From: a virus
DNA length: 25,532 bases
Direction: 5' to 3' (one strand)
Virus record (IMG/VR): IMGVR_UViG_3300028115_001464
Coordinates: 1-25,532 of that record
This document shows positions 2,841-23,855 of the stretch, piece after piece. Made by a program: the position numbers and the translations under genes. The notes beneath the pieces are model-generated. The model did no database searches and had not been told where the DNA came from. It saw only the letters and a program-made list of their open reading frames with translations. How positions within the stretch are numbered: position 1 is the stretch's first letter; each line of letters opens with the position of its first letter.

Positions 2841-2860
2841 ATATAATCCTCCTTACTATT

Positions 2861-2890
2861 ATTATAGTTTAGGAAATATTTCTTTTTCAA
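2861..2890 (-). promoter_or_regulatory. Predicted sigma70-type promoter upstream of fcl
   Basis: Read on the minus strand: TTGAAA (2890-2885), an 18-base spacer, then TATAAT (2866-2861) preceded by C. The -10 matches consensus exactly and the -35 matches 5 of 6. The -35 overlaps the stop codon of the upstream aminotransferase gene. The core CTATAATA is the same as in the other two promoters of this window. The distance to the fcl ATG is about 20 bases from the -10, so the leader would be short. Confidence 0.55.
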
Positions 2891-3699: not shown

Positions 3700-3724
3700 T
3701 TTATTCACCTTACTAGATTAAAGT

Positions 3725-4198: not shown

Positions 4199-4200
4199 AA

Positions 4201-7316: not shown

Positions 7317-8025
7317 TTGTTATCCTTTGCTTAGGAAATCCCAACTCTTTTCTCTTCTCAAAAACCATTTGGTCTCTACCAGCATAATGTAGAGTTTTCT
7401 TAGCTGATAGATCAAAGTCTCCCGAATTACTATTTCCTTCTTCGCCGTAATGCTCATGTTTAATTATAATGCGGTCAATATATTTAGCTCTGTTAAGTCT
7501 ATATACCTGCTGAGTAAATTCATCATCGCAATATAAACTCTTATAATCTGGATGGTAAATATATCCGAAATAATCATATAGCTTTCTACCCAATATAGAA
7601 AGAGTTATCAACTTTCCTTTTTGATGCCCGTCAGAATAATGAAGGGCGCCATCTCTGTGTGGGAAATGAGTTTGCATATCTGTAGCGATAATGTCATCCC
7701 ACCCCTCTTCCTGCGGTATCATATCATCTGATGCGCAAATTACAATATCAAAATCAAAAAATCTTGCGTCAATATGGCTGTTGATAGCGGATATCTTGGT
7801 CGTATTTTTATCAAACTTTAAACTAAATGTACAATTATCTTTTTCTTGAAACAAACCGCAGACATCTGCTACAAATTTACTGTTATTACAGAGATCGTCG
7901 TCTTCGTCACAGTTAATATTAAAATGTAGCTCATGTTTAGAGCTATACGTAGAGAGATATTTTTCTAGGCACTTAGTAAATTTCTCAGGTCTAGCATATG
8001 TAGGAAACTGAATCAATATTTTCAT
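7309..8025 (-). CDS. GT2-like glycosyltransferase
   Basis: 238 residues. The N-terminus MKILIQFPTYARPEKFTKCL is the usual start of GT2-type enzymes. NINCDEDDD (38-44) gives the nucleotide-binding acidic pair, and DIVICASDDMIPQEEGWDD (93-111) gives the D(D)M metal site and the acceptor-side acidic residues. Near the C-terminus a KHEHYG motif offers a metal-binding His as in many GT-A enzymes. It shares the MKILIQ start with the next gene in the chain, though the rest differs. It overlaps both neighbours (ATGA upstream, 8 bases downstream). Confidence 0.8.
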   Translation of the reverse strand: MKILIQFPTYARPEKFTKCLEKYLSTYSSKHELHFNINCDEDDDLCNNSKFVADVCGLFQEKDNCTFSLKFDKNTTKISAINSHIDARFFDFDIVICASDDMIPQEEGWDDIIATDMQTHFPHRDGALHYSDGHQKGKLITLSILGRKLYDYFGYIYHPDYKSLYCDDEFTQQVYRLNRAKYIDRIIIKHEHYGEEGNSNSGDFDLSAKKTLHYAGRDQMVFEKRKELGFPKQRITND

Positions 8026-8879
8026 TTAACTTTTTCTTCAATCTTTTTGAGTAGTTGTTTGGATCTGACGTTAGAGGTGTGCTTCAGCATCACTTGGCTC
8101 TTAATCTTTTCTAAAATATTTGACTCATCAACATCTTCTTCATCTAGTATTTCAGACAAGAACTTTGATAAATTTTCTGAGTCTTGTATTTTCAGCGAAA
8201 CATCTTCTGAATTTAAAATGCTATCAAAGAAAATCTGACCACATAGATCTTTTGTTTTCCCGCACAATGTAATATTCTTATAATTTCTATATATTGGTTT
8301 CATTGTGACGGTGTTTACAAAGAAGTCAAAATCGGGATCTTTCTCATGACTAATTTTAATCTTATGGTATACTTCTTTTTTTGAACATAATTTTTGATAT
8401 TCTTCAGAGTTTTCAACGGCGAGAACAGCACTGTCAATATTAAATTTAGGTGTTGATATTTGAATTTCATCAATGTTAGCTGCTGGTAGAAGTTTAAACA
8501 GTTCGTGTTTTTTTGGTTTTACTGATTCCATGAAGTCATAAGCATTAGAAATCATAAACAAACAATTTATATTAAATTGATCTATAATGCTCTCTAATTT
8601 GTCTAAATCTTCTTGAGATTCCAAGCCGCTAATACTGAGAATTACTTTGATGTTTTTTTCTTGATTTGTTGATAGATACTTAACAATATCTTTGTTCATA
8701 AGCCCAAAGTGACAGATAAGAATGTCTGGCTCAGTTCTATCTAACATATCATATGCGCTGTAACGGTTTACCTCCCATAGTCCGCTCTGGTGATCTGACG
8801 GATGGCTATTGATTCCATTGCTTAGATAGTATGGCTCACTAGAAGTTGGGGTTGTATAATTTTGTATTAGAATTTTCAT
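8022..8879 (-). CDS. Divergent GT-B-like protein of unknown role
   Basis: 285 residues. The first 125 residues look like a Rossmann half-domain: MKILIQNYTTPTSSEPYYLSN, then ILICHFGLM, IKVILSISGLE and CLFMISNAYDF strand/helix pairs. This resembles the acceptor domain of GT4 enzymes that starts with a Gly/Ser-rich loop after strand 1. The second half keeps KNITLCGKTKDLCGQIFFDS but lacks the E-x7-E donor motif, so catalysis is doubtful. The last 60 residues are charged and probably helical. AAGGA lies 6 bases before the ATG, which overlaps the previous stop as ATGA. Confidence 0.55.
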   Translation of the reverse strand: MKILIQNYTTPTSSEPYYLSNGINSHPSDHQSGLWEVNRYSAYDMLDRTEPDILICHFGLMNKDIVKYLSTNQEKNIKVILSISGLESQEDLDKLESIIDQFNINCLFMISNAYDFMESVKPKKHELFKLLPAANIDEIQISTPKFNIDSAVLAVENSEEYQKLCSKKEVYHKIKISHEKDPDFDFFVNTVTMKPIYRNYKNITLCGKTKDLCGQIFFDSILNSEDVSLKIQDSENLSKFLSEILDEEDVDESNILEKIKSQVMLKHTSNVRSKQLLKKIEEKVK

Positions 8880-9607
8880 ACCGAGTCCTTTATACTTTTT
8901 AAGTTATTATATTTCTTTACTTGTCTTTCTAGATTTTTTATAACAGCTACTTCATAGTTTCTTGAGAAGTCATTTATGGCTTCAAATAAAAATTTTGTCT
9001 TATAGTTAATATTAGAAATTATTTCATAAAATTTATTTACTTCTCTTTCACCGCATAGATAAAAATTCTCAATCCAATAGTTATCTTTTAATCCAAGTGA
9101 AAGATTTTGCAATTTATAATTGTGGTTTATAGCTGAAATTTCAAACAGAGAATTAGAATTAGTATCTTGAGTTATGATTGAATTTTTAGTATAGTCAATC
9201 TGCGAGTAATTCTCTTTAGAAAGTATTGTATTACATTGCTGTATGAAGATCCTAGAATTATTAGTATTTCCCAAACATAGTCTAATACTTTCACAACAAT
9301 TAGTATTGTAATGTATCTGATTTTCAACAACTCTTACGTTATCAAATAATCCATCTTTAATGTGGCTATTTATTTTAAATGACTCAAACCCCGTACATAC
9401 GATTATTTCATAATTTACAAAACAAGACTTGATTGTTTCAATTTGTTTTTCCAGAATGGTCTTTTCACCAATCTTAATCATTGGGATTGGGCCATGAGAC
9501 TTCATTCTATATCCATGATTTTCAGCAAGAATTATAAAGGTTATAAACTCTTTTATATCCTTGCGTTGCCTATTTCTAGGGCTTGTTATACAGAATTTAT
9601 TTTTCAT
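8876..9607 (-). CDS. Nucleotidyltransferase-like protein (degenerate NTP_transferase fold)
   Basis: 243 residues. Residues 24-75 follow the sugar-1-phosphate nucleotidyltransferase pattern: FIILAENHGYRM, PIPMIKIGEKTILEKQI, then YEIIVCTGFE. The canonical signature LAAGxGxRL is altered to LAENHGYRM, and the usual GDxxF metal motif is replaced by IFIQQCNTIL, so it may bind rather than activate sugars. It is very rich in Asn, Ile and Lys. No ribosome site is visible before the ATG, and the 11-base overlap with the upstream gene suggests coupled translation. Confidence 0.55.
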   Translation of the reverse strand: MKNKFCITSPRNRQRKDIKEFITFIILAENHGYRMKSHGPIPMIKIGEKTILEKQIETIKSCFVNYEIIVCTGFESFKINSHIKDGLFDNVRVVENQIHYNTNCCESIRLCLGNTNNSRIFIQQCNTILSKENYSQIDYTKNSIITQDTNSNSLFEISAINHNYKLQNLSLGLKDNYWIENFYLCGEREVNKFYEIISNINYKTKFLFEAINDFSRNYEVAVIKNLERQVKKYNNLKSIKDSV

Positions 9608-10331
9608 TGATATTTTTATAAAATTGAGATCCTTTAATCATCTTTCTAATATCTGATTCCATCATATCGTAATTATTGAAATCTAGATAACGAGATTTAA
9701 CAATTTTTGAGGATATGGTGAGGTTTCCGCTTGAATCTTCAAACACAAGTATCTTTTCTAAATCTTTATTTATAGAAGCGTTTATATTACTTAAATAGTT
9801 TTTGTCTATTGTAGAACCCGCTTTGAGTTGCATGAGATAATTAGACTTTGATAGATATTTAAACGAATCAAAGTCTTTGATGTGTTGAACATTATTAAAA
9901 TTGAATACAACTTTATTATTAATATCTTCTGCTTTTAATTGATGAGAAAGCAATACAAATTTTGATACTTCTTCTTTTTTTGCGGTACACTGTACTACTA
10001 CGGCAAATTTGTTCTTAGGGTAGTCAATATTTTTTATAGAATCAATTGACTTTTGCATGTCCTCAAGGCTATCTTTTACAACAAGCACGATACCAACAGA
10101 TGGATAAATATTTAGCAGGTCTTCTTCAAGTGAAGAGTCTTTATTGTTATTTAGATTGCAAACTCTACTTATACTGTAAAATTTACCTTCTTCATTTATC
10201 TCTGCTTGTTGGTTTTCTTTAAACTTATCTAGTCTATTCGCAGAGCATCCTACTTGAATATTTTCTACTATAGCATACTTACACCCTTCACAGGAAGTTG
10301 TTATACTAAGATCTGACTGCTGAGATTTCAT
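9597..10331 (-). CDS. GT2-like protein with N-terminal cysteine cluster
   Basis: 244 residues from the ATG at 10331; an ATG at 10343 would add four residues but has no ribosome site. Near the N-terminus there is a cysteine cluster (CEGCKYAI ... VGC ... VCN) that could hold a metal. Then YPSVGIVLVVKDSLEDM and NIDYPKNKFAVVVQC follow the opening strands of a GT2 domain, and SNYLMQLKAGSTID sits where the DXD would be, with the acidic pair replaced. Residues that define an active GT2 are therefore not evident. It overlaps the upstream methyltransferase-like gene by about 26 bases and is rich in Asn/Lys/Ile like its neighbour. Confidence 0.5.
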   Translation of the reverse strand: MKSQQSDLSITTSCEGCKYAIVENIQVGCSANRLDKFKENQQAEINEEGKFYSISRVCNLNNNKDSSLEEDLLNIYPSVGIVLVVKDSLEDMQKSIDSIKNIDYPKNKFAVVVQCTAKKEEVSKFVLLSHQLKAEDINNKVVFNFNNVQHIKDFDSFKYLSKSNYLMQLKAGSTIDKNYLSNINASINKDLEKILVFEDSSGNLTISSKIVKSRYLDFNNYDMMESDIRKMIKGSQFYKNINEK

Positions 10332-10731
10332 ATCTAAATCCATTCATTTTAGAGTGTACGACGGTGAGGTTTAAAGATTTTACAATGTTTTCTGCTGATG
10401 CGAGATTCATCATAGACTTTACCTTTGAAACACAATCTCTTGCGCTTGATTCATCTATAACATTGTTTGTTACATTCTTGCAGAACATTCTTAAATCAAT
10501 TCCACCCACCACAATCCTACCATTAACTCTTAGTTTATTTGTTATAGCCATCAGGTTTTCACCTAAAGCTTCTGGTTCAGAGTCATCTATAATATTTTGA
10601 GCAATGATTAATTCGCACTCATTGTCGGAGAACTCTTGTAGCTTTTGTGTCAGTGGGACATAATCCATTTTAACATAATTAAATCCACCGATAGGTGCTT
10701 CATCTTTCGTAAGAATTTGTAATTTTGTCAT
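10306..10731 (-). CDS. Short methyltransferase-like protein without a SAM-binding glycine loop
   Basis: 141 residues. The centre follows the second half of a class I SAM methyltransferase: ECELIIAQNIIDD (strand 4 region), LMAITNKLRVNGRIVVGG (strand 5) and a C-terminal FRYEISAVRS strand. The first part that normally carries GxGxG is missing, so the protein either lost SAM binding or works with a partner. It lies between GT genes with AGGAA 5 bases before its ATG. Its gene-neighbour order (methyltransferase-like, GT2-like, nucleotidyltransferase-like, GT-B-like) is a run of incomplete or divergent domains. Confidence 0.5.
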   Translation of the reverse strand: MTKLQILTKDEAPIGGFNYVKMDYVPLTQKLQEFSDNECELIIAQNIIDDSEPEALGENLMAITNKLRVNGRIVVGGIDLRMFCKNVTNNVIDESSARDCVSKVKSMMNLASAENIVKSLNLTVVHSKMNGFRYEISAVRS

Positions 10732-10738
10732 TTTATTC

Positions 10739-11725
10739 CTATAGTATAGAAGATTGATAAATCTGATTAAAAATCGTATTCCATTTTTCCGTAAAGTTTT
10801 CAGTTGTAAATCTACTTAACACTGTAGACCTAGCAGCTTTACCCATTTCTACTGCCATCTCTGGATTATTTAGTAGCTGTTCTACATATCCACGTAGTTC
10901 TTGTTCATCGTTTGATATAAAACCATTTTTCCCATGTTCAATAATTTTTGGTATTTCACATGTAGCGGTACTGACAATCGCACAACCACAAGACATGGCC
11001 TCTAATAGAGCCGTAGGGAGCGGACTGAAGGTAGACGTATTAAGGAATACCGATGAAGACTGATATCCCTTTACAAGCTCTTGAACCGAACTAGCGGCTT
11101 CAGAAAGACCCGGAGTATTTCCAATAACTTTCACTGGAAGCCCCTTTGTAATTCTTTGCCACCCAGAAAAGTTAAGACAATAATCTCTATTAATAAAATC
11201 GTTAGCTACGCTCAATACAACGTTGTCTCTTTTCTCTTCGCTAGAACAAAATGTTTCTGAGTCAACATTATGTGGAGCAACAATTCCATCACTAGAAAAT
11301 CCCCAAGCATCTTTATTATACTCTGTATTAAATATGTTTAGGTGTCCTTTTATGGATTTTAAATAATTAACTTGCTCATTTGTCATATTTGGCGTAGGTA
11401 CTGTATGCTCCATGCAAATTATTGGCAATTTAAAGGTTTTAGAAATATCAAACGCAATTTGCAGTTGACCAAATTTACTTTGAGCTAAAATAAAGTCTAA
11501 ATCAAGACCTTGAGGAATAGTATTTTCTGGTAAGATGTAATAGTTACTTGGTATTTTTGCGTAGTTTTCGTCCCACTTCTTACCTTTATTGTGATCGAAA
11601 CAATAAAAATTGTGACCCGTTAGACATAAATCTGATTCGTATCTTTCATGCGTAGCAAAGGTTAAGATATTATATTTATCCTTTTTGCTTAATTTAGATA
11701 AAATCTGTAGCGTTTGATTACTCAT
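10739..11725 (-). CDS. GT4 glycosyltransferase
   Basis: 328 residues. The C-terminal donor domain is clear: NVVLSVANDF (start of the second Rossmann domain), LPVKVIGNTPG, a SSVFLNTSTFSPLPTALLE run and EAMSCGCAIVSTATCEIPKII, followed by HGKNGFI and RSTVLSRFTTENF. These are the E-x7-E and GNGF-type elements of GT4. The N-terminal acceptor domain is shortened and lacks the usual glycine-rich loop near residue 15. GGGAG lies about 7 bases before the ATG, inside the end of the upstream GT gene, and the two genes overlap by 8 bases. Confidence 0.85.
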   Translation of the reverse strand: MSNQTLQILSKLSKKDKYNILTFATHERYESDLCLTGHNFYCFDHNKGKKWDENYAKIPSNYYILPENTIPQGLDLDFILAQSKFGQLQIAFDISKTFKLPIICMEHTVPTPNMTNEQVNYLKSIKGHLNIFNTEYNKDAWGFSSDGIVAPHNVDSETFCSSEEKRDNVVLSVANDFINRDYCLNFSGWQRITKGLPVKVIGNTPGLSEAASSVQELVKGYQSSSVFLNTSTFSPLPTALLEAMSCGCAIVSTATCEIPKIIEHGKNGFISNDEQELRGYVEQLLNNPEMAVEMGKAARSTVLSRFTTENFTEKWNTIFNQIYQSSIL

Positions 11726-12857
11726 TTATCGCTCCCTTCATTAGTTCTGCAACGTTTTTATAGGAGAATTGTTCTGCTCTCTTCAGTCCAGCAGCCTGAT
11801 TCCTAGACTTATAGGAAATACTATCCTTTTTCCAAGAGTTATACAGTCTTCTCATTTGTTCTTTAATATCTTTCTCTGACGGCTGAAACCAATACTCCCT
11901 TCCGGTAAAGAGGTCTTGAAATGCTGCATCATCACATCTACAGATAGTTGAAACTCCATTAGCCAAGAATCCAGTTCTCCAATCATTCCTATCAATAAAA
12001 TCTCTAGGTCCACCAAAATTAGAGCAGATTGGAGTGTTGCCAAAGCACATTGCTTCAAATGATGGGATAGACCAAGCTTCTCCGTGAGACGGACATATGA
12101 AACAATCGCAATACTGATGTAGCGCGTATAACTCTTCTTCTTTAATTTTAGAAGGCACTATAACTGGTCTTTTGTAGTCTGTCGAATTTCTATATAGACG
12201 CACATCTTTTTGGACTTTCGCAGATAGATTATTAACTAGCTCTTCCATCATTTTTGGATCGTGACCAAATTTACTAACTTTAAGTATTAGAGCTACATCT
12301 TCTGAAGATTCAAATTCTGAATAAAAACAAGCAAGAATAGACTCAAGATTTTTTCTCTTATTTACATCTCCAATATAGTAAAATTTGAATTTACCCTCTA
12401 CGTTGGGTACTTTTATGTCGCCATATCTCCGTTTATATTTTTCTAATTCAAAAGTATGTGGAATCACTTTAACCGGGATGCCGATTTCATCTTCAATTAA
12501 AGAATTTTTAAGTTGTTCATTTGGAACCCATACCTCATCCATCATTTTAAGGTTTTCTAACCAAGCGAGACCTTTAATACTGGTTGATTCGGAAGCAAAA
12601 AAAGCAATATTCTTTTTAAGCTTGTTATATTTAACAAGATAGTGCGGTAGAACATGTTGAATACAAATATCACAATCAGAAGAATCTTTCTTCTCTAGCG
12701 CTAGAAGTCTGCTATCAACATCTTCTTTGTCACTAGTCAAAGTAACATTTCTGCAAACAACATCAACACCATTTTTGTCTAAGGCTAGTATATAGTCGGT
12801 TGCAGCCTGAGACCAGCCACCAAATTCCTTGTAATGTCCTATGTATAATATTTTCAT
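11718..12857 (-). CDS. GT4 glycosyltransferase
   Basis: 379 residues, the normal length for GT4. It starts MKILYIGHYKEFGGWSQAA with the G-G-x-S/A loop of strand 1. It contains FKFYYIGDVNKRKN (second domain start), CDCFICPSHGEAWSIP and SFEAMCFGNTPICSNFGGP, with the E-x7-E pair and a glycine-rich donor loop. It is probably a cytoplasmic enzyme adding a hexose to a growing glycan. The ribosome site is weak (AGGA about 12 bases upstream, at the stop of the FkbM gene). Its end overlaps the next GT4 gene by 8 bases. Confidence 0.88.
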   Translation of the reverse strand: MKILYIGHYKEFGGWSQAATDYILALDKNGVDVVCRNVTLTSDKEDVDSRLLALEKKDSSDCDICIQHVLPHYLVKYNKLKKNIAFFASESTSIKGLAWLENLKMMDEVWVPNEQLKNSLIEDEIGIPVKVIPHTFELEKYKRRYGDIKVPNVEGKFKFYYIGDVNKRKNLESILACFYSEFESSEDVALILKVSKFGHDPKMMEELVNNLSAKVQKDVRLYRNSTDYKRPVIVPSKIKEEELYALHQYCDCFICPSHGEAWSIPSFEAMCFGNTPICSNFGGPRDFIDRNDWRTGFLANGVSTICRCDDAAFQDLFTGREYWFQPSEKDIKEQMRRLYNSWKKDSISYKSRNQAAGLKRAEQFSYKNVAELMKGAINE

Positions 12858-12865
12858 AAAATTAT

Positions 12866-13531
12866 TTATCCTAAGTTATTGTTTTTGTAAAGAATATCTT
12901 CTTGCCATCCTTTTAAATTAGGATTATTTTGATTTGAAAAATTATTATCTTTTAAAAAGCTGTTTAATTCTTCAAACATAACTTGACCAGAATAGATTTC
13001 TTTATATGTTACTTCAGTATATATATATTTAACATTTTTCAGGTAGTCACCAAGACCTTTAAGTGCTAACATCTCAGCGCCTTGAAGATCCATCCATATA
13101 ATGTCTACGTTTTCAACGCCATGTTTTTGCATTACACTGTCTAACCTATGACAATTTACGTTTATTTTGTATTGAGGAAGGCTTTCCGCAGTATAAGTTC
13201 CATTGTGTTGGAACATGGATGACGCTCCCGGATTTCCGTCTGCGTGAACTGTTTCATTTTTTTCTTGGTCTATAGGATAAAAATCAACTGTGCCGTCATA
13301 GTCGCATACAGCACCTTCTATTAACTTCACCCTGTCTCCAACTTTGTAATTTTTTATATTGTTTTTACAAATATCTAACGTGTTTGGATTGCACTCAAAA
13401 GAATATATATTAGAGTTTGGGAAAGCATAATACAACTCTATGCTTTGCATACAATCTCTAGCTCCAACATCCAGTATATTGTACTTTAAATTTCTATTTA
13501 AGTCTATATTGTAAATTAGATTTTCAATCAT
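12866..13531 (-). CDS. FkbM-family SAM-dependent methyltransferase
   Basis: 221 residues. NILDVGARDCMQSIEL is the SAM-binding loop, IYSFECNPNTLDICKNNI is the second strand with the ribose-binding Glu, and VKLIEGAVCDYDGTVDFY and VDIIWMDLQGAEMLALKG are the FkbM signatures. Such enzymes O-methylate sugars in polysaccharide and antibiotic pathways, so a hydroxyl of the glycan built here is the likely target. GAGGAAAATA precedes the ATG. It is separated from the upstream gene by 36 bases with no promoter-like sequence. Confidence 0.88.
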   Translation of the reverse strand: MIENLIYNIDLNRNLKYNILDVGARDCMQSIELYYAFPNSNIYSFECNPNTLDICKNNIKNYKVGDRVKLIEGAVCDYDGTVDFYPIDQEKNETVHADGNPGASSMFQHNGTYTAESLPQYKINVNCHRLDSVMQKHGVENVDIIWMDLQGAEMLALKGLGDYLKNVKYIYTEVTYKEIYSGQVMFEELNSFLKDNNFSNQNNPNLKGWQEDILYKNNNLG

Positions 13532-13567
13532 TATTTTCCTCTAGTTTGAGTTCTGTTTTTTATTGGT

Positions 13568-14299
13568 TTAGCAATTAACTTTAGTTAAACAGCTTGCATG
13601 ATAGTAGCTTACAGATTTAAGCTCGCAGTATTCTGATTTATCAAATCCGTAATATAACGCTTCCCCCCACAGCATATGGTCTCCCCATCTATAAATATAG
13701 ATACCTTGAGATTCATTTACCTTGTCTATAAAATATTTAACGGTATCGTTTCCTCTAATTTTATTTAGATCCCAAGCAACGAGATTAGTATACGGGCCGC
13801 CTATCTCCTGCCTTGGTTGATCTGGAAAAATCTTTTTACAGAAGTCACTAAGCCCGTAAACATTGAACCAATCGTCTCCGCACCATTTTCCATAGACGCA
13901 AACTTTTTCATCAAGGGCATCAAAAATATGATCTAAGTCTGAATAAATAGTGCAGTCTTCGTCAATTCTCAGTAATTGGTCATAGCTTTTAACATAATCT
14001 AGAAATCCAGAGAACCAGAAGTTACACATATGCCTATAGTTCCAACCCCAAGGTCTTGTTGGTTCAAATATTGCATGGTTTCTAGGTTCAAATTTAGGTA
14101 TAGTTATGAACTGTAACGGAATCTTAGTTTTAGATTGTATATATTCTTGTTGATCTTCACTAATGTTTCCTTCGTTGAACACAAGAAAGTCGTAATCTCT
14201 CTGTATGTTCTCTTCTATGGAATTGTTTCTTTGAATAAAAGAATCATATTCATCTATGTTTTTATAACCTCTTGTTAATAATGCTATAGCTCTTTTCAT
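13568..14299 (-). CDS. GT15 (Kre2/Mnt1-like) glycosyltransferase
   Basis: 243 residues. The motifs follow the fungal alpha-1,2-mannosyltransferase family GT15 in order: WNYRHMCNFWFSGFL (86-100), YDQLLRIDEDCTIYSDLD (106-123, with the acidic DED at the EPD metal position), YTNLVAWDLNKIR (170-182) and YIYRWGDHMLWGEALYYG (201-218), where RWGD holds the catalytic-region Asp. Fungal members have an N-terminal membrane anchor and are about 400 residues; this one has no anchor and starts with the catalytic domain, so it should be cytosolic. GDP-mannose is the likely donor by family. It overlaps the upstream GT4 gene as ATGA, with AGGAA before the ATG. Confidence 0.8.
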   Translation of the reverse strand: MKRAIALLTRGYKNIDEYDSFIQRNNSIEENIQRDYDFLVFNEGNISEDQQEYIQSKTKIPLQFITIPKFEPRNHAIFEPTRPWGWNYRHMCNFWFSGFLDYVKSYDQLLRIDEDCTIYSDLDHIFDALDEKVCVYGKWCGDDWFNVYGLSDFCKKIFPDQPRQEIGGPYTNLVAWDLNKIRGNDTVKYFIDKVNESQGIYIYRWGDHMLWGEALYYGFDKSEYCELKSVSYYHASCLTKVNC

Positions 14300-15981
14300 T
14301 TAGAATTTCCTGCAATTTGGTTAATTCTTTGAACTCTGAGATTTTCCCAATAGTTTCTTTTTTCACACATTCCTCTTAGCTGTTGATATGCAATATCAAG
14401 GTCGAACGGATTCCTAAAACCCTGAGAGTCAAATATTTGACTACTCTCGTTGAAGTACATACCGCCAGTTGAGGATGTTGATTGTCTATACAACAAATCT
14501 CTTGTTAGTCTAGATTCAAAAAACGTATTAAGTTTGGAGCTATCTCCAAGAACATTAACAATTAACCATCTTGCGAGGTCTTTGTGTCTAACATTATCTT
14601 TCAGGTCTGGCTTTGGTGCTGGTTCTATAATTTTTGGTTCAGAACCCCACCCTTGCTGGAACTCAATTGGGTCAGTTTCATCAAAGTATTTCTCCCATCG
14701 AGCGCCACTTAAATGCCACTGATAGTGTTTTTCAAAGTTTTCTCTAGTCCTTTTACCCATAGCCACTCTATCTTCTTCATTCATTTTTTCAAAGAAGTGT
14801 AAGAAAATTTCTGAAGCATATTCATTATCTGGTACTGCTCTAAGACATCCTGTTTCCAGTTCTTTGTATAAAGCTGCTGGCGTGATAGTGAACCCTTCTA
14901 GCTTCCTTAAAACACTTTCCATAGCGGAATAATCAGTTCCGCACACGGGAACCCCACACGCCGCAGCTTCTACTTGAGGGAGTCCGAATCCCTCGCAGTT
15001 TGCATATTGAGTATAAAGATCAAAACAGTTCATAACTTTTGCTAAATCTTCATAGCTCAAACCATTTTTAACGTTTGAAAGAGTTGACCCCCACTTCCCT
15101 GTATAGGGAGATTGAGCAATTGCGCCTTTAAATTTTGATGAGAATGGCTTTTTAGTCTCTGGGCAAATGTATGTGAATAGTACATTTGAGGCAATTCCAT
15201 ATTGGTTTAGTAGCTCTGGTATATCCCAACCAAGGTCTGGATAAGATGTATGACAGTAGAGATAATATTTCTTACTCTTTGATTTATTTAAGAACTTTTT
15301 AAATGCTTCAAATAAATCAGGATATAGTTTACGGCGTTGATTGCGCATAACAGTGCCGATAATTTTATACTCTGGGTCAATTCCCATAGCTAACTTGTGA
15401 GCATTTTTATTATCTATTGGAGCATAAGCTGCGTGAGCAGATGGTGGCGCACTTCCTAGATAATTAATTTTACCGCCAGACTGATCTTTTAAGACTCCAC
15501 CAGCCCAATCAGAATATGTTAGACATCCATCTGCACCAGCATACGTGGCAATCCACTGTCTAGCTTGAGGTCTTGCGTCAACAGTAGGCATTACAACCCA
15601 CTTAAAATATGGTCTAAATGGAGACCGTTCTGCAAAGTCAAGCATCCAAAAATCACGAATATCACAAACAAAATCTGGTAAAAAATCCAAACAAACATTT
15701 TCAAATATCCATTCCCCAAATTGGTTGCTTGGTGAGCTTTGATACTTTTGTATTTCTTCTTGGCTCGCTTTTGGTTCATTGTGCATATTTGGCGCTACAC
15801 CATAATATTTCCAAGGAATGTTTGCTGCCCTAGAGTCATTTCTTTCTCCGTAAGAAGACATTTCAGCAATTTCGTATTTACCAGTACTATGCAAATAGTT
15901 TAAGATTTCTCTAGTGTATGTAGCATATCCGGTGTTAAGAAATGTAGCTTCGCTACAGAATAGAATTCTTTTCTTTCTCAT
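14296..15981 (-). CDS. Large GT4 glycosyltransferase with extra C-terminal domain
   Basis: 561 residues. The GT-B part spans about 1-430: ILFCSEATFLNTGYATYTR (strand 1 with the acceptor loop), KIIGTVMRNQRRKLYPDLFE (donor domain with R-x-x-R-K) and YANCEGFGLPQVEAAACGVP, whose E-x7-E is the GT4 donor site. After residue 440 a further 120 residues (PAPKPDLKDNVRHKDLARW, then LTRDLLYRQSTSSTGGMYF) match no fold I know; they could be a docking domain. The gene follows ssb by a single base and probably shares its promoter. Confidence 0.85.
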   Translation of the reverse strand: MRKKRILFCSEATFLNTGYATYTREILNYLHSTGKYEIAEMSSYGERNDSRAANIPWKYYGVAPNMHNEPKASQEEIQKYQSSPSNQFGEWIFENVCLDFLPDFVCDIRDFWMLDFAERSPFRPYFKWVVMPTVDARPQARQWIATYAGADGCLTYSDWAGGVLKDQSGGKINYLGSAPPSAHAAYAPIDNKNAHKLAMGIDPEYKIIGTVMRNQRRKLYPDLFEAFKKFLNKSKSKKYYLYCHTSYPDLGWDIPELLNQYGIASNVLFTYICPETKKPFSSKFKGAIAQSPYTGKWGSTLSNVKNGLSYEDLAKVMNCFDLYTQYANCEGFGLPQVEAAACGVPVCGTDYSAMESVLRKLEGFTITPAALYKELETGCLRAVPDNEYASEIFLHFFEKMNEEDRVAMGKRTRENFEKHYQWHLSGARWEKYFDETDPIEFQQGWGSEPKIIEPAPKPDLKDNVRHKDLARWLIVNVLGDSSKLNTFFESRLTRDLLYRQSTSSTGGMYFNESSQIFDSQGFRNPFDLDIAYQQLRGMCEKRNYWENLRVQRINQIAGNSK

Positions 15982-15982
15982 T

Positions 15983-16309
15983 TTATTCCTTTTCTAAGCA
16001 CCCAAAGTCAAATTCGTTAATTCTAAATACAATATCATCAGTAGCATCTGTTTTCATGACACCATTTCTAGCAGAAGCATAGACGGTCATTTTAGTTCCT
16101 TTCTTGCCGAGCTTGGCGATTGTTTCTGCTCCAGATGCCCATGCTTGTAGAGTGATGGTCGTGGGAACTTTCTTTTTTTCTCCGCGCTTGTTCTTACGAT
16201 ACTCGTAAGTGACCAATTTGACAGTACAGCAGCTAGCTCCACCGTCTGCTTCCCCCGTTTCAATCTGTGGGTCATGTAATAGATACCCAGTAAAAGTACA
16301 ATTATTCAT
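15983..16309 (-). CDS. ssb: Single-stranded DNA-binding protein, OB fold
   Basis: 108 residues from the ATG at 16309, which has AGGAGA about 5 bases upstream; an upstream ATG at 16336 would add nine residues but has no ribosome site and lies too near the promoter. NNCTFTGYLLHDPQIE is the first OB strand as in bacterial SSB (N-x-V/x-L-I/x-G-x-L). SCCTVKLVTYEYRKNKRG is the second strand and basic loop, and TTITLQAWASGAETIAKLGKKG matches the W-x-x-x-A-E-x-x-x-x-x-x-K-G core. There is no acidic DDDIPF tail. It should coat single strands during viral replication and follows the polymerase genes. Confidence 0.88.
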   Translation of the reverse strand: MNNCTFTGYLLHDPQIETGEADGGASCCTVKLVTYEYRKNKRGEKKKVPTTITLQAWASGAETIAKLGKKGTKMTVYASARNGVMKTDATDDIVFRINEFDFGCLEKE

Positions 16310-16341
16310 CAATTTCTCCTGTGTAAAATGTCTCACTCTAT

Positions 16342-16370: not shown

Positions 16371-17930
16371 TTAAATTTCGTGAATTTTATCAATAATAAA
16401 TGATCCATTCTTCTCTACCTCTCCGCAAAACAATAGATTTACACCTTCATCTAATATAAATACGTATTTATCTGTAGCTTGCGGGAATACAACCACGTTG
16501 TCGATAGAGCATGTGTCATCTTCAAGAGTTAAGAAGCACATATCTTTACCCTTACTCTTACCCTTCTGACACTTATACTTCTGTAGCCTACTAACATTTG
16601 CAACCAAGCATATGTTTTTACCAAATTTACCATCTAATATCTCTTTACATGTGGTATTAGAGTGTGAAGTGTCAGAAGCTTCTACTCTAGATAAAGATAT
16701 AGGACATCCAAGATACTTCTTCTCTTGTTCTACAATCCACTCTGGGTGATCAGATAGATCGTATGGTGGGTTTTCTAAAAAATGAATTTCATTTCCTATG
16801 ACCTGTTTTCTATCAACCTTGCTTGTTCCTCCACCCTCTTTTTTAGTTGGTGCAAGATCAACAAAGCAATCCTTTAATGTTTTCCACTTCTTAGATTTAT
16901 AGTTATCAGTTACCCACTTTAGCTCTGCCTTGGTTAGATTTTTAAATATCAGGTATTCGTATAGAGCTTTATTTCTAGTAACGCCCGTTTTCTTTGTCGA
17001 AAAGAATCCTATAGAGCAAAGAGCTTTAAATCCAGTGGAGTTTATATTAGAAGACAGGTAGATTAGAATATCCATCCAAGTAAGATTGTGTAGGGGTTTA
17101 TTAATATCTTCCGACACTTTCTCAATAGCATTTATTACTTTATCTCCATTCACACCAGTAAGTGATTTAACATCTTTAATACCAAAGCATAAATTATTCT
17201 TGTTAACAAAGAATGTTTTATCCCATGTCGTTATGTTTGGAAGTTTTACCTCAATGTCAAACAGTTTAGCTTCTGATACAAGTTCGTATACTTCTTGGTG
17301 GGGGTCTTGTTTTTCATTCGCGTAGGTTAGGTATGACAAAAAGAACTCTTTGGTGTAGTTTGCTTTATACCAAGCACTCTTGTAAGAGTTGATTGCATAG
17401 CACACAGCGTGAGATTTATTAAATGAATATCGCGAAGATTTCTCAATCCACCCAAATATTTCTTCTGCGGTTTCTTTATCGACCTTTCCAACCTTTTCAC
17501 AACCAATGAGAAAGTCTTTCTTGACTTCCGCCATGAGGTCTGCCTTCTTCTTACCAATAGCCTTACGCAGAACATCTGCTTCTTGAAGATTAAACCCAGC
17601 AAGGTCTTTCGCGATGCGCATAGATTGTTCTTGATAGATTAGAACGCCCTTGGTAGTTTCAAGTATATCTGTCAAAGTAATATGAAGATATTTAATTATA
17701 TCAAGGCCGCTCTTCCTATCAACATAGTGTTGGGTCATAGACTTACCATCTGCAATAGCTTTTAGCGATCCCGGACGAATCAAAGCAATCAACGCTGAAA
17801 GTTCTTCAATATTAGTTGGTTGTAATCTTTTCGACCAAGCGCGACCAAGATTACTTTCTAATTGAAAGATACCTTTGGTTCTACCCTCTTTAAAAAGATT
17901 CCAAGTTTTTTCATCATTATAATCAATCAT
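16371..17930 (-). CDS. dnaE: DNA polymerase III alpha, C-terminal part (fingers, HhH, OB), encoded as a separate gene
   Basis: 519 residues. The N-terminal sequence DEKTWNLFKEGRTKGIFQLES (from residue 6) matches the start of the DnaE fingers domain. IRPGSLKAIADG, GVLIYQEQSMRIAKDLAGF, EADVLRKAIGKKK and SRYSFNKSHAVCYAINSY follow in the usual order (about 51-183). A helix-hairpin-helix region lies near 246-272, and an OB fold at 435-519. The tau-binding end of cellular DnaE is absent. It holds no catalytic Asp and must pair with the N-terminal part encoded 1.1 kb upstream. The junction is close to flush: nothing obvious from DnaE is missing or duplicated between the pieces. The ATG overlaps the HNH stop by 8 bases and has no strong ribosome site, so it is likely coupled. 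Confidence 0.92.
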   Translation of the reverse strand: MIDYNDEKTWNLFKEGRTKGIFQLESNLGRAWSKRLQPTNIEELSALIALIRPGSLKAIADGKSMTQHYVDRKSGLDIIKYLHITLTDILETTKGVLIYQEQSMRIAKDLAGFNLQEADVLRKAIGKKKADLMAEVKKDFLIGCEKVGKVDKETAEEIFGWIEKSSRYSFNKSHAVCYAINSYKSAWYKANYTKEFFLSYLTYANEKQDPHQEVYELVSEAKLFDIEVKLPNITTWDKTFFVNKNNLCFGIKDVKSLTGVNGDKVINAIEKVSEDINKPLHNLTWMDILIYLSSNINSTGFKALCSIGFFSTKKTGVTRNKALYEYLIFKNLTKAELKWVTDNYKSKKWKTLKDCFVDLAPTKKEGGGTSKVDRKQVIGNEIHFLENPPYDLSDHPEWIVEQEKKYLGCPISLSRVEASDTSHSNTTCKEILDGKFGKNICLVANVSRLQKYKCQKGKSKGKDMCFLTLEDDTCSIDNVVVFPQATDKYVFILDEGVNLLFCGEVEKNGSFIIDKIHEI

Positions 17931-18399
17931 TATTTTTATTACTTTTTCTTTTCTGTTGAGCTTTTTTAGAGTTAAATCCGTTCGTCACCCATTGTAAATT
18001 TTCTACCCTGTAGTCTGACTTGTCATCGTTTATATGATCTACTTCTAGTTTTTTAGAAGTGTCATCATTTTCTACAAATGCTAATGCTACTAATCTATGC
18101 ATAGCTATTACAACTCCACCCATACCTATACAGGGGTACTGATTTCTAGTAGTGCTTATGGATAACTTTTTACCTTTTGTTCCTATTACATACGGAAAAC
18201 CACCAGTATTCTTATGAAGGAAATATTTACCAGAATCCATAGAGTTTAATTTAGAAATCATGATGTTAGATTTTCTATGCATCTCCTTGTCGCCAACAAA
18301 GTTAGCTTTTATCTTACTAACATCAATTACATCTTCATCAGAAATTTCATGGTTTGCCGCTTCCGATAATTCAAATAAAGTTAGCTGTCTTAAATTCAT
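17923..18399 (-). CDS. HNH endonuclease, free-standing, with clamp-binding-like N-terminus
   Basis: 158 residues. The nuclease core is at the C-terminal half: IAMHRLVALAFVEN (His101), KKLEVDHINDDKSDYRVEN (Asp121-His122, N134) and LQWVT, the pattern of HNH_3-type homing enzymes. Between residues 55 and 100 a small beta domain (GKYFLHKNTGGFPYVIGTKG) could help bind DNA. The start MNLRQLTLFELSEA contains QLTLF, which fits the bacterial clamp-binding motif QLxLF. The gene overlaps the exonuclease stop by 4 bases (ATGA) and the next polymerase part by 8. It lies exactly between the two halves of the split polymerase, as mobile endonucleases often do. Confidence 0.88.
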   Translation of the reverse strand: MNLRQLTLFELSEAANHEISDEDVIDVSKIKANFVGDKEMHRKSNIMISKLNSMDSGKYFLHKNTGGFPYVIGTKGKKLSISTTRNQYPCIGMGGVVIAMHRLVALAFVENDDTSKKLEVDHINDDKSDYRVENLQWVTNGFNSKKAQQKRKSNKNND

Positions 18400-19070
18400 A
18401 GATAAGTATTCCCGTTAGCAAATGCCTTTTCAAGTTTTAGGTTTCTATAAACAGCGCGATGAGTCTTCATGAACTTAATCATCAGGTTAGCAGTATCCTT
18501 AACGTCCTGTAACGCATCGTGAGCGTTTTCAGAAGACATACCCATACGTTCTCTAATACTATCCATACTTCTAGTTTTAATAGATGGATCGCCTTCTGTC
18601 CACATCCAATAGTTGTCCATCATATCAATTTTATAAATTTGATGGAATAGCTTTTGCTTTTTCCTCTCTTTGTCCCAAGGTCCAAATTCTTCACATAATC
18701 TATCAATAATTATCATATCATAGCCAAGAATATTATAACCAGCGGGGATCGGAGCGAAGAATGGCGTGCTTTTCCAGTTGTATTTGTCAACAAATGCGCA
18801 AAACTTATTCCAAGTGGGTTTTAGTTTTGGCGCTTTTGCAATCTGCTCTCTGGTTTTACCAGTCACCTTTAGCGCACCTTCTTCTAATGGTGTTAAACCC
18901 ATCTTGACTGCTTTATCATCATCTGTTTCAGCCCATATCTCACTATTAAAAGTTCCTTTTAGCTTTAAACTTCTACCATCTAGAGCTAGCGCAGCTATCT
19001 GAGTTGGTTGACACGTCCTTGGGTCACGGCCACCGGTTTCAAAGTCAAAGACTATAATATCTCTATTCAT
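18396..19070 (-). CDS. DnaQ-like DEDDh 3'-5' exonuclease (probable proofreading subunit)
   Basis: 224 residues. The three exonuclease motifs are clear: Asp9 and Glu11 in VFDFETGGRDP, Asp118 in GYNILGYDMIIIDRL, and His184 and Asp189 in SENAHDALQDVKDT. The overall length fits DnaQ/RNase T relatives. It should remove mismatched 3' ends, most likely for the polymerase encoded on either side, whose PHP domain lacks normal metal ligands. Its start overlaps the end of the polymerase N-part by 8 bases and its stop overlaps the HNH start by 4 bases. No clamp-binding motif is evident. A general repair exonuclease is the alternative. Confidence 0.9.
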   Translation of the reverse strand: MNRDIIVFDFETGGRDPRTCQPTQIAALALDGRSLKLKGTFNSEIWAETDDDKAVKMGLTPLEEGALKVTGKTREQIAKAPKLKPTWNKFCAFVDKYNWKSTPFFAPIPAGYNILGYDMIIIDRLCEEFGPWDKERKKQKLFHQIYKIDMMDNYWMWTEGDPSIKTRSMDSIRERMGMSSENAHDALQDVKDTANLMIKFMKTHRAVYRNLKLEKAFANGNTYL

Positions 19071-20700
19071 TTTTTTCCTTTATGAGTGCTTCAATATACA
19101 TTAATTTATCTAATAGGTTAATTGCAAGAACGTCAAACTTAACGTGACCTAGAGCTTCTAAGTCTGTCATCTCAAGACCTGCAATCTTTTCTTTACTACT
19201 TTTTGAGTTTACCATAGGACACACTTGACCAAGAGGCTCTGCTGAAATGACAACACCAGCAGCATGTTTTCCTTGAGTTTTAAGTGTTCCTTCAATCTTA
19301 ATAGCTTGCTCAAAATACTCAGCGTAATCACCCTCTAAATATCCTTTATCATTTACATGACAATAATCATATAATCCTTCTGAGTTATTTTGCAATGCCC
19401 AGCGAATAATAGAGCGATCTTCCTCATCCATCTGCGATAGTTGATCAGATATGGCGGCTTCATCTGGAATGTATTTAGTGATTTCATTCATAACGCTAAA
19501 TCCACAAGCCTCGTTGACCCGTAGAATCTCTTTAATTGCGCTACGGCCTTGAAGTCTACCAAACGTCACCATCTGGCTTACATTCTCATGACCGTACTTA
19601 TCTTTAATATTTTCAATAATTTGGTCGCGCTTCTTTCCGGGAATGTCAATGTCAATATCAGGCAAAGAAATGTTGTCTTTGGTGTTACGACCGGGGTTGT
19701 AAAATCTTTCAAACAAAAGGTCAAACTCGATTGGATCTACTTCTGTAATACCAATCAAATACGAAATCAAACAGCCAGCAGCAGAGCCACGACCCGGACC
19801 AACCATCCAACCTTGATCTTTTGCATACTGAATAATATCTTGAACGATCAAGAAATAACCAGACAATTTTGCTTCTTTTATAATATCAAACTCTTTTCTA
19901 AACCTATCGCCATATTCATTCCAGTATGGAGAGTCTTTTTCAATGTGCGGGAGTTTCTTTTTCCAGCCTTTTCTAGCAAGCTTAGTTAGGTATTGCTCTT
20001 CGGACTCTCCGTTTGGCGTTTTAAATTTTGGCAACTTAGGATTGCTTAGAATATTATAATTCTCACATTCGTTATATATCTTTTCTAATTCCTGTAAACC
20101 TTCTGGGTCTTCTAGCATAACCTCTGTTGCTTCTATTTTATCTGGAACAAAGTAGTGAGAAAAGTCAAAGAATTTCTTATTATCAAACTCTTCACCTTTT
20201 TGGTATAGTTTTCTCATTTTTGGTAGAGTAGTTTTCATCTCTGAACATAGAAGAATCCTGTGTAGGTTAGCGTCTTCTTTTTCTACATAGTGCATGTCTT
20301 GAAAACATTTGGTTTTATTATACCAGCCGCTTTTTACTGGTGAGTCAGCAGCGGATTCTGCGAGAACCAAAAGGTTGCCCTTATTGCAAATATCTGACAT
20401 GTCGCTGCTATTATAGTTTCCGTCTGCATCTAGAAGAGATACAATTTTTATTAGGTCAAACCAACCGTCTTTATTCTTAGCAAACAGAGTAAATTTATCA
20501 AACGAGCATCCTATTATTGGCTTAACATCATTTGCTACGCAGGCTTTATAAAAAGCAACTGATCCAGAGATAGTTTTATAGTCGGCAATTCCGCAAGCGC
20601 GAAAATTATTCTCCGCGCATTTCTTAGCAAGCTCTTTGGGTTTAGAGAAACCCTTTAGAAGTGAATAGTGCGTGTAATTACACAATGGGAACCAAGTCAT
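19063..20700 (-). CDS. dnaE: DNA polymerase III alpha, N-terminal part (PHP, palm, thumb), encoded as a separate gene
   Basis: 545 residues from the ATG at 20700, with AAAGGA about 5 bases upstream; a TTG at 20703 is too close to that site. Residues 1-75 are a PHP domain (YSLLKGFSKPKELAKKCA, ACGIADYKT), but the usual metal-binding His/Asp pattern is degraded (NYTHYS, DYKT). Palm motifs are GPGRGSAAGCLISYL (301-315), LPDIDIDIP (Asp348 and Asp350) and VKFD (Asp523), that is, all three catalytic aspartates; TQGKHAAGVVIS (475-486) lies in the thumb/palm region. It stops at LLDKLMYIEALIKEKNE, right at the palm-fingers boundary. The next parts of DnaE start in the gene at 17930. A promoter and a 65-base gap precede it. 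Confidence 0.93.
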   Translation of the reverse strand: MTWFPLCNYTHYSLLKGFSKPKELAKKCAENNFRACGIADYKTISGSVAFYKACVANDVKPIIGCSFDKFTLFAKNKDGWFDLIKIVSLLDADGNYNSSDMSDICNKGNLLVLAESAADSPVKSGWYNKTKCFQDMHYVEKEDANLHRILLCSEMKTTLPKMRKLYQKGEEFDNKKFFDFSHYFVPDKIEATEVMLEDPEGLQELEKIYNECENYNILSNPKLPKFKTPNGESEEQYLTKLARKGWKKKLPHIEKDSPYWNEYGDRFRKEFDIIKEAKLSGYFLIVQDIIQYAKDQGWMVGPGRGSAAGCLISYLIGITEVDPIEFDLLFERFYNPGRNTKDNISLPDIDIDIPGKKRDQIIENIKDKYGHENVSQMVTFGRLQGRSAIKEILRVNEACGFSVMNEITKYIPDEAAISDQLSQMDEEDRSIIRWALQNNSEGLYDYCHVNDKGYLEGDYAEYFEQAIKIEGTLKTQGKHAAGVVISAEPLGQVCPMVNSKSSKEKIAGLEMTDLEALGHVKFDVLAINLLDKLMYIEALIKEKNE

Positions 20701-20729
20701 CAATGTCCTTTCAAGTTAGTGTTCAATAT

Positions 20730-21347: not shown

Positions 21348-21930
21348 AATCGAACCTTTCTAAAATGTGTTGACAACTCTGGTCTATAAATTGTAGGCTA
21401 CTTCCGTTCAGTAAATCTTGGGTTTGTTCTAGCTTTCGAGAAGCATTTCTACGCCTATTAATAAATTTTTTTACATCTTCTTTTATGGGAATATCGTAAA
21501 GGTCGGCCAACTGATTCATTGACTGCTCCAAATTTTCAAATTTAAATATTTGTTTACATTCTTTGTCTGTTCCGATACCATAAAACCTATCAAAGTGATT
21601 ACCAAGTTGAAAAACATCTTCTCCTTTGCACTTCTGTATGAATTCATTGATATCATTTGATCTAAGACGCTCAAAAGAGGTGGTAGAGATTTTCCAATTT
21701 ACTGTGTGCATAAAGTGGAACATGGAAACGTACCAAGAAACAGGATGCCTAATAAAACCAAAGCTATTGCAACCTTCTGGTAATTCTTCAACCCCCAAAT
21801 GTCCTCCATTTTTCGTATAATTTATAGGTTTAAAATTGCACTTGTTTAATATCTCAGAAACCCACCAACCTCCACATTTTTCTAAATGTAGAAATGCAAT
21901 GTTCTTTTCTTTATTTATCATAGATGGCAT
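21328..21930 (-). CDS. Sulfotransferase family protein (P-loop, PAPS-type)
   Basis: 200 residues. IAFLHLEKCGGWWVSEIL (11-28) fits the 5'-phosphosulfate loop of the Sulfotransfer_2 family (H-x-x-K-[CT]-[GA]-G), and FGFIRHPVSWYVSMF (57-71) is the 3'-phosphate motif (R-H-P/D-P-x-x-x-x-x-S). A basic segment KKFINRRRNASRKL is typical for the family's late region. It would transfer sulfate from PAPS to a sugar hydroxyl. It overlaps the fusion-protein gene by one base (TAATG) and the methyltransferase gene by 20 bases. A second in-frame Met four residues in is also possible as a start. Confidence 0.83.
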   Translation of the reverse strand: MPSMINKEKNIAFLHLEKCGGWWVSEILNKCNFKPINYTKNGGHLGVEELPEGCNSFGFIRHPVSWYVSMFHFMHTVNWKISTTSFERLRSNDINEFIQKCKGEDVFQLGNHFDRFYGIGTDKECKQIFKFENLEQSMNQLADLYDIPIKEDVKKFINRRRNASRKLEQTQDLLNGSSLQFIDQSCQHILERFDYDLLSL

Positions 21931-23855
21931 TAGAGTGTCACCCCCTCATTTATTGATATAACATAAGTATTTTTAATTTTATTTTTAGCAATTAGTCTAG
22001 ATTGATGGGGGCAGCTTTCTATGAAATAAACTGGTTTAATTTTTTCACTAGGGGTGGTTATCGCATAGTTATTAAAGACTTTTGACTTGTATTCTCCAAC
22101 ATTCTTCAGGTGGTTTATATCTCTTTCTTCTTTTGTTCCGTTAAACATTATTAATTCGTTGTATTTTATACCATGCTTTTTTAGCCATTCTTCTGTTTGA
22201 GGTCTGTATTTTTCAAGTCTACCCGTACATATTGCCATACAATTAAATAATTTTGGAATTCTTGAATTAATTGGTAATACATCGGTGAGCCATTTTTCAT
22301 ATTCATTTTGATTTTCCGCCACTTCATAGGGGCAGTCTTTACAAAAAACACCGTCTAAATCAAATATTCCATACAGAGATGTGTGAGCATTGAAAAAATT
22401 CCATTCTAATACATGGGGATATGGCGCACATACATTGGCTATATCTAATATATTTTTACCGTCAACACACATTGGGTGTGAATAAATTGTTGTATATAGG
22501 AACTTTTCCTTTGGGTACTTCTTATTAAACAACTCTTTTGTTCTCATAATTTCAGCGCCACTATAACTAGTGTCATCTACAACTAAATAAGGTAAAGATT
22601 TATTTTCGTTGAACATTTTCATTCTAGATCCACCATCTTTTGATCTGGTAGAGTGTAGCTTCTTTATTTCTCCTTCAGAGACGCTGTATAAAGGCACAGA
22701 CATGTTGACCGAAATCACTGAGGCTGGTATCATTCCCGATCTCGGCAACCCAATTACACCTTTTATTGGCGGTAATTTCTCGCATAGTTTTGTAGATTCT
22801 TCTACTAGGTCTTTAGTCGTTAGAAACTTTCCCGGTTCGATAAAACTAATATCGCTATGTGATTTTAGGATTTTTTCTTTTTTTTCATTATCCCAAGGTA
22901 GACTGATTTGGTTACAATTTTTAACTTTATTTGGTGACTTCATTTCATAATTTCCAGATATTATCCTTTTTAGGATCTCCATTCGATATTCATGCGGTCT
23001 AGCGGCATTTATATGTATGAATTGAGGTTTAAAAAATTCACTATTGAGTAGACTCCAAAATTCTGGATCTATAAATTCTAGATTATACTTTTTACTGAGG
23101 ATAAAATATTCTTCTGGCTTTAGGTTTATTCCCATTAAATGTTGGTCATATGTCCATATATTTTTATATACAGGATTGTTTATAGAGTAATTGTCCGCAT
23201 ATTTATGCGGTAGAAGCAGAATTCCAGCTTGGGGTTGTAGGTGATACGTAAATTTCTTACCAAGAATTGTACATAAATACTGCCTAACGTTCTTAAAGCT
23301 TTTGTAGAATTTCTCATCTTTTTGTACTGTTTCTACTTCGTTTGTAAAGCACATTTTATGTGAATGTGGGTGTTCAAACAAGTTTTGGGCGTTTTTCGTG
23401 ACTATGATATCACAGTCTAAGTATAGAGTTTTTTCGTAGTGTCTGACTACATTTTTTAGCCTATACTTATTACCAAGCCCCCACTCTGGACACTTGTCAC
23501 CTGTAAGCTCTACGTAATCGGCGCCGCACTTTTTTGCATACTCTATAATATTTTGCCTAGTAATCTCCAATTGTTCTTCACAATGCTTGTTACCGGCTAT
23601 TGTGCAGATTGCATTTTTATTAGAAGGTGTCGGAATATCTTCTTCAAGTTGATCAAAGTTTATATGATACTCTTGAAAAAGAGATGCAGTTTGAAAATTA
23701 TTGATATTAATCTTGCTAGATAATTCTAGATAATTTTCTCTTTCTTCTTTTGTTGCATCTTGACACCATTTCCAGTTAGGCGGCGATTCACCCATAACTT
23801 TACCAAAGACGGAGCAGAACCCCGCCTTTTCGCAATTACATTTAGATAGATCCAC
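21930..23855 (-). CDS. Three-domain fusion: glycosyltransferase, phosphoribosyltransferase, HAD hydrolase
   Basis: 641 residues. N-terminal cysteines (CNCEKAGFC, WC) may bind a metal. About 80-300 is a GT8-like domain: ICTIAGNKHCEEQLEITRQN, YLDCDIIV (DXD, Asp147/Asp149), PQAGILLL and YDQHL. About 335-480 is a phosphoribosyltransferase domain: GVIGLPRSGMIPA (366-378) as the flexible/PPi loop and LVVDDTSYSGAEI (424-436) as the PRPP motif. About 495-640 is a HAD hydrolase: IFDLDGVFC with Asp499/Asp501, AICTGR (motif II) and VYFIESCPHQS (late motif, ES instead of the usual DD). It starts at GTG (23855) directly after the upstream stop, with AGGA about 9 bases upstream; the Cys cluster supports this start. 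Substrate unknown; it may make or trim an activated sugar or nucleotide. Confidence 0.87.
   Translation of the reverse strand: MDLSKCNCEKAGFCSVFGKVMGESPPNWKWCQDATKEERENYLELSSKININNFQTASLFQEYHINFDQLEEDIPTPSNKNAICTIAGNKHCEEQLEITRQNIIEYAKKCGADYVELTGDKCPEWGLGNKYRLKNVVRHYEKTLYLDCDIIVTKNAQNLFEHPHSHKMCFTNEVETVQKDEKFYKSFKNVRQYLCTILGKKFTYHLQPQAGILLLPHKYADNYSINNPVYKNIWTYDQHLMGINLKPEEYFILSKKYNLEFIDPEFWSLLNSEFFKPQFIHINAARPHEYRMEILKRIISGNYEMKSPNKVKNCNQISLPWDNEKKEKILKSHSDISFIEPGKFLTTKDLVEESTKLCEKLPPIKGVIGLPRSGMIPASVISVNMSVPLYSVSEGEIKKLHSTRSKDGGSRMKMFNENKSLPYLVVDDTSYSGAEIMRTKELFNKKYPKEKFLYTTIYSHPMCVDGKNILDIANVCAPYPHVLEWNFFNAHTSLYGIFDLDGVFCKDCPYEVAENQNEYEKWLTDVLPINSRIPKLFNCMAICTGRLEKYRPQTEEWLKKHGIKYNELIMFNGTKEERDINHLKNVGEYKSKVFNNYAITTPSEKIKPVYFIESCPHQSRLIAKNKIKNTYVISINEGVTL

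Follow-up and report, generated by a model that had tools for sequence, protein, structure and literature searches.

Can a replicative DNA polymerase of family C work when its gene lies in two pieces, and what broke the gene? The question is raised by IMG/VR record IMGVR_UViG_3300028115_001464, a 25,532-bp virus fragment that was analysed over its whole length (the window). Its DnaE-type polymerase is spread over four consecutive minus-strand open reading frames (ORFs), two of them encoding other proteins, and a gene for single-stranded DNA-binding protein (SSB) follows. C-family polymerases copy all bacterial chromosomes and, to our knowledge, they occur either as one chain or as chains re-joined via inteins. 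We put at roughly 80% the probability that the locus encodes an ancient gene-in-pieces replicative polymerase, made as two chains that work without splicing, with a resident exonuclease and a recently arrived HNH gene between them.

The position of the break

The N-part of the polymerase (19063..20703, minus strand) comprises a degenerate PHP domain, the palm and the thumb with all three catalytic aspartates (PF07733, DNA_pol3_alpha, E-value 2.5e-71, and PF02811, PHP; E. coli alpha 3-577). It could start at a TTG at 20703 or at an ATG at 20700 that has AAAGGA upstream and gives 545 amino acids (aa), and the ATG is the likely start. The C-part (16371..17930, minus strand) holds the fingers, the clamp-binding region and the OB fold, without the tau-binding C-terminal domain (PF17657, DNA_pol3_finger, E-value 3.7e-44; E. 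coli alpha 588-1073). In the gap lie a gene for a DEDDh (DnaQ-like) 3'-5' exonuclease, X hereafter (18396..19070, minus strand; PF00929, RNase_T; phrog_192), and, exactly at the joint of exonuclease and C-part, an HNH homing-endonuclease gene (17923..18399, minus strand; PF13392, HNH_3; phrog_59; 'homing endonuclease' in PADLOC). Successive ORFs from N-part to C-part overlap by 8, 4 and 8 nucleotides (nt). DnaE is thus not a single polypeptide here: its two ORFs are in different frames, with two genes between. The original prediction, made from the letters of the window, had the four ORFs and their overlaps of 4 or 8 bases right.

The alignment with E. coli alpha puts the end of the N-part at about residues 577-587, in a linker that varies in length among homologues, and the start of the C-part at about 588; D401, D403 and D555 (E. 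coli numbering) are all in the N-part. The N-part had been described as stopping directly after VKFD, which is wrong, as about 22 residues follow and their tail, VKFDVLAINLLDKLMYIEALIKEKNE before the stop, lies in the variable linker. The placing of the split at the palm/fingers boundary (E. coli alpha 3-577 / 588-1073) was borne out. With the joint in the variable linker and the C-part taking up at about 588, the break costs no conserved residue, in agreement with the earlier view that little or nothing is missing, and the same residues run through the joint in intact homologues.

AlphaFold2 models of the single chains, built from 56-sequence alignments, have a mean predicted local distance difference test score (pLDDT) of 93.0 for the N-part and 91.8 for the C-part. 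Against 2hnh, the N-part model covers E. coli alpha 3-577 with 505 residues aligned at Z 28.2; against 5fku, the C-part model covers 588-1073 with 444 residues aligned at Z 21.9. As modelled, the two halves tile E. coli alpha with a 10-residue linker between them and neither overlap nor loss. The catalytic aspartates, GPGRGSAAG and PDID are invariant or nearly so across 56 N-parts.

Age of the split and the endonucleases at its joints

The relatives of this locus form a large uncultured viral group, mostly marine. About 190 loci came from scans of viral contigs, the queries being each half, an alignment and an intact relative, and gene order was counted in the 122 distinct loci that hold both halves and the exonuclease. 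The order N-part, exonuclease, C-part (N-X-C) is found in 121/122, usually with SSB next. The exonuclease is the constant resident of the gap, while the other inserts come and go. The X|C joint has no insert in 76 loci, an endonuclease-VII type (PF02945) in 22, and in 4 each the HNH family of the window, a different HNH family (phrog_2255) or methyltransferases. The N|X joint holds a small protein of 72-83 aa in 37 loci, a protein of about 164 aa ("R") in 6 and a further endonuclease type (phrog_3322) in 4, its remaining inserts being a methyltransferase or ORFs without a match. At least three endonuclease families besides the window's HNH occupy these joints. The small protein, "P" (for example L045:9574-9792), has no match in Pfam or in PHROG. 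As for cellular DnaE, 80/80 loci fetched are single genes, two of them after allowing in-frame TGA; these two, the bacterial loci L263 and L275, were considered as split genes and rejected, their breaks being in-frame TGA codons consistent with alternative genetic codes.

A second contig, L019, matches the window at 99.98% identity along 8,222 bp, from the N-part through the exonuclease and HNH genes into the C-part. Another, L002, equals the window from a point upstream of the N-part until roughly 600 nt inside the C-part and diverges beyond, at what the sequences indicate is a recombination breakpoint. These two matches across the joints rule out a chimeric assembly, and with it the concern raised with the original prediction that the two parts might come from different molecules. 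Given the identity to L019 and the N-X-C order in 121/122 loci, the split is neither chance nor an assembly fault.

That prediction named the present HNH gene as the cause: its insertion would have split dnaE, with the exonuclease brought along or already there, leaving two parts that assemble in trans. The HNH gene is indeed of homing type (PF13392, 34.9 bits vs a cut-off of 24.8) and stands at a joint, and there are precedents for phage genes split in this way (PMC2988022). However, just 4/121 split loci carry this HNH. With 117/121 distinct split loci lacking it, 76 of them with an empty X|C joint, the HNH is not the splitter. Its age also contradicts such a role, for the window copy is 94.5% identical in DNA to that of L006 while the flanking genes are about 75% identical. 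The HNH of L286, at the same joint, is 91% identical in aa, and the N, X and C proteins there are 53, 56 and 41% identical to those of the window; across sites the HNH is 91-95% identical while flanking proteins are 41-82% identical. At the same joint again, the copy in L287 is 73% identical. All 7/7 other contigs with this HNH (L002, L019, L006, L007, L016, L286 and L287) carry it at X|C. We regard it as very improbable that the present HNH made the split; it is better read from these comparisons as a recent homing element, far younger than the split.

The HNH gene begins at the exonuclease stop codon and its end supplies the C-part start codon, so neither neighbouring gene is damaged. Such a footprint is as expected of a free-standing homing endonuclease, for which site-specific cleavage is predicted. 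The original break may have been made by some older endonuclease; no trace of one was seen at these loci and none is needed.

Whether the gene was broken once or several times depends on the locus L093, whose dnaE is one intact ORF with the joint residues kept. The order there is R, small protein P, exonuclease, an endonuclease gene, DnaE and SSB, and its relative L176 also has the exonuclease upstream. Maximum-likelihood trees with bacterial and phage DnaE as the root place the intact pair L093/L176 inside the split clade, and L093 was nested with two models and two taxon sets. This nesting points to one ancient split followed by re-fusion and suggests that L093 was re-fused from a split ancestor. 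The split and L093 arrangements are one block move apart, in either direction, of the small protein and exonuclease relative to the N-part.

An approximately unbiased (AU) test of L093 outside the split clade gave borderline p-values of 0.063 and 0.064, leaving room for several independent splits, in which case L093 would be the ancestral single gene and the exonuclease block would have entered dnaE separately in at least three lineages. The native-looking joint residues of L093 and its intact PHP metal motif would fit such a history. Against it, both trees nest L093, and all split lineages have the same exonuclease at the same joint. The PHP motif is also kept in the L090 and L018 split clades and is therefore no proof of a basal L093. 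The exonuclease tree gives no resolution around L093. We consider independent splits unlikely, but a serious alternative to the single ancient split.

The PHP metal motif (HxH ... DH) is lost in the window, which has CNYTHYS / IADYKT instead; E. coli alpha departs from it too. It persists in L093 and in two split groups, L090 and L018, but the window's clade and the L075 group have lost it. Given its retention in some split groups and loss in others, the PHP decayed after the split. Besides the HxH/DH motifs, the PHP lacks about 80 residues in the window's clade and the L075 group; other split groups keep both.

A probable polymerase of two chains

According to the favoured reading, a DnaE-type gene would have been broken once, in the ancestor of the clade, at the flexible palm-fingers linker, and a proofreading-type exonuclease gene would then have come to occupy the break. 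The overlapping genes of the operon would be translated together to give an N-chain (PHP-palm-thumb) and a C-chain (fingers-clamp region-OB), and the two chains would assemble without splicing into one polymerase. The exonuclease would be the probable proofreading partner, because the PHP site of the window is degenerate. The HNH and other unrelated endonucleases would have spread into the joints later. On one point the original prediction holds by necessity: both parts must act in trans if the gene works at all.

Both halves are under purifying selection. Between the window and L021 the ratio of nonsynonymous to synonymous substitution rates (dN/dS) is 0.045 for N, 0.056 for X and 0.039 for C, figures that are rough since dS is near saturation. 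The D-E-D-D-h residues of the exonuclease (DFE, N/D, HD...D) are invariant in 16/16 diverse relatives aligned. Each of 18 contigs of 80-174 kb has one palm gene and one fingers gene (the latter in two pieces in L039). No PolA, PolB or second dnaE was found on these 18 contigs, including the intact second dnaE that had been named among the findings that would refute a split polymerase.

The pieces could instead be a decaying relic in viruses that rely on the host polymerase. Such decay would explain the loss of the PHP metal motif and the tau-binding domain in the window's clade, and the clamp motif that is not seen. It is hard to reconcile with ORFs kept at about 40-100% identity, a dN/dS of about 0.04 and catalytic residues invariant in 56 sequences, and we hold it to be highly improbable.

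Equally, a full-length protein might be restored through protein trans-splicing or RNA splicing, as the C-part of the relative L039 contains inteins, one of which is split, with a free-standing endonuclease gene between its halves. The joint of the window has no intein halves, with 22 residues after VKFD and about 17 before TKGIFQLES. Pfam finds no Hint/intein match in the N- or C-part, intein halves being known just in L039, and Rfam finds no group I or II intron in the whole window. The gap is wholly coding, and ORF overlaps of 4-8 nt leave no non-coding sequence for an intron. We give splicing the least credence of all the explanations considered.

Several points weigh against a working polymerase of two chains. 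The QADMF clamp motif has no counterpart in the C-part when aligned with E. coli alpha, and the tau-binding C-terminal domain is not found either, since the OB fold, at E. coli residue 1073, is where the C-part stops; both may be missing from other phage DnaE as well. The dS calculated by the Nei-Gojobori method (NG86) is saturated (about 2 or more). The contigs are fragments, which leaves room for a second polymerase off the contig or for use of the host polymerase. Finally, we infer the binding of the N- to the C-chain and the activity of their assembly, as we do the role of the exonuclease and the manner of the first break.

If a chain with the catalytic aspartates and a chain with the fingers do form the enzyme, the covalent link between palm and fingers is dispensable in family C, and the viruses provide a replicase split by nature that could serve mechanistic studies. 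Joints within a broken essential gene have, as these loci show, become shared landing sites for unrelated homing endonucleases, and the apparently split-then-re-fused L093 makes the evolution of gene fission testable. More tentatively, and with the odds somewhat against it, the split might be a selected clade-wide design: an obligate three-chain replicase core of palm chain, exonuclease and fingers chain, with the exonuclease produced between the other two for coupled assembly. This would be the first known C-family replicase working in pieces without splicing, and the re-fusion in L093, at least one natural case, would be its built-in control.

Comparable arrangements and neighbouring genes

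A split is known already for family B polymerase, for NrdA and, with split inteins, for DnaE. New here is that an entire viral clade has a stably split C-family replicase, with an exonuclease fixed in the break and with joints serving unrelated endonucleases as a shared landing site. We found no non-intein split C-family polymerase of a phage in the literature, in a search that was thin on subscription papers.

The closest parallel is gp43A-gp43B of Aeromonas phages 25 and 44RR, also a phage replicative polymerase in two genes, where phage 25 has the endonuclease gene seg43 at the break; this endonuclease may have entered an already split gene (PMC2988022). The gp43A and gp43B of phage 25 co-purify and polymerise, according to the same review (PMC2988022). 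In both cases two ORFs cover the whole enzyme, with the association known there and proposed here. Unlike the present system, that polymerase belongs to family B, has its exonuclease within the polymerase and is split in two related phages, whereas here a family C enzyme is split clade-wide with a separate exonuclease in the gap. In phage Aeh1 (nrdA-a / mobE / nrdA-b) an HNH gene also lies between working halves of an essential enzyme, and the split NrdA is active (PMC2988022). There the split is attributed to the endonuclease, while here it is older than the HNH.

Rossellomorea phage phiT1 (gp20/gp19/gp18; PV767480; L195:4968-8250) has DnaE split in the same linker, at E. coli residue 578/583. 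It lies outside the clade in the tree and has a 49-aa ORF without known function in the gap rather than an exonuclease, and its split apparently arose independently of that of the clade. As an isolated phage, phiT1 offers a cultured system for trans assembly. Cellulophaga phage phiST (gp044/gp045; L097:5680-9280) likewise has DnaE in two adjacent genes, but its break is inside the palm, before the PDIDTD motif; the N-piece has an unusual tail, Hint-like by eye only. Both splits are annotated in GenBank, and we found no paper discussing either.

Cyanobacterial split-intein DnaE and fractured genes resemble the window in having DnaE in two genes or, for fractured genes, an endonuclease between the pieces. 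Protein splicing re-joins them, in contrast to the window joint with no intein. In the relative L039, on a 154-kb contig, the C-part is broken further (L039:10479-14112), with one intein following IIRPG and a second, split one on either side of a free-standing endonuclease gene (12098-12985). Its polymerase pieces come from three genes, two of these apparently joined by trans-splicing. In Alicyclobacillus phage MMB025 (L096:3150-7512) the fingers of DnaE are broken after KAIG by a stretch of about 1.2 kb that contains an endonuclease ORF and may be an intron. The homing endonuclease gene (HEG) islands of phage core genes (PMC10448857) are similar in that essential replication genes are flanked by homing endonucleases that belong to different classes and are interchangeable at a given place; the sites described here differ in being inside a former single gene.

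The SSB gene downstream of the C-part (15983..16336, minus strand; PF00436) is syntenic in most relatives, giving the order N-X-C-S. The terminase has just 25% identity to those of Microcystis phage MaeS and Bacillus phages. A search for the T4-type major capsid protein gp23, made to place the viruses, gave no match, and the control likewise matched nowhere. The window has a second endonuclease-like ORF at 701-1468 (phrog_559, phrog_9084). A 641-aa ORF at 21930-23855 resembles a fusion of GT8-like glycosyltransferase, phosphoribosyltransferase-like and polynucleotide-kinase-like parts. Positions 1899-15981 of this virus fragment are taken up by a long one-strand series of glycosyltransferase, methyltransferase and sugar-nucleotide genes.

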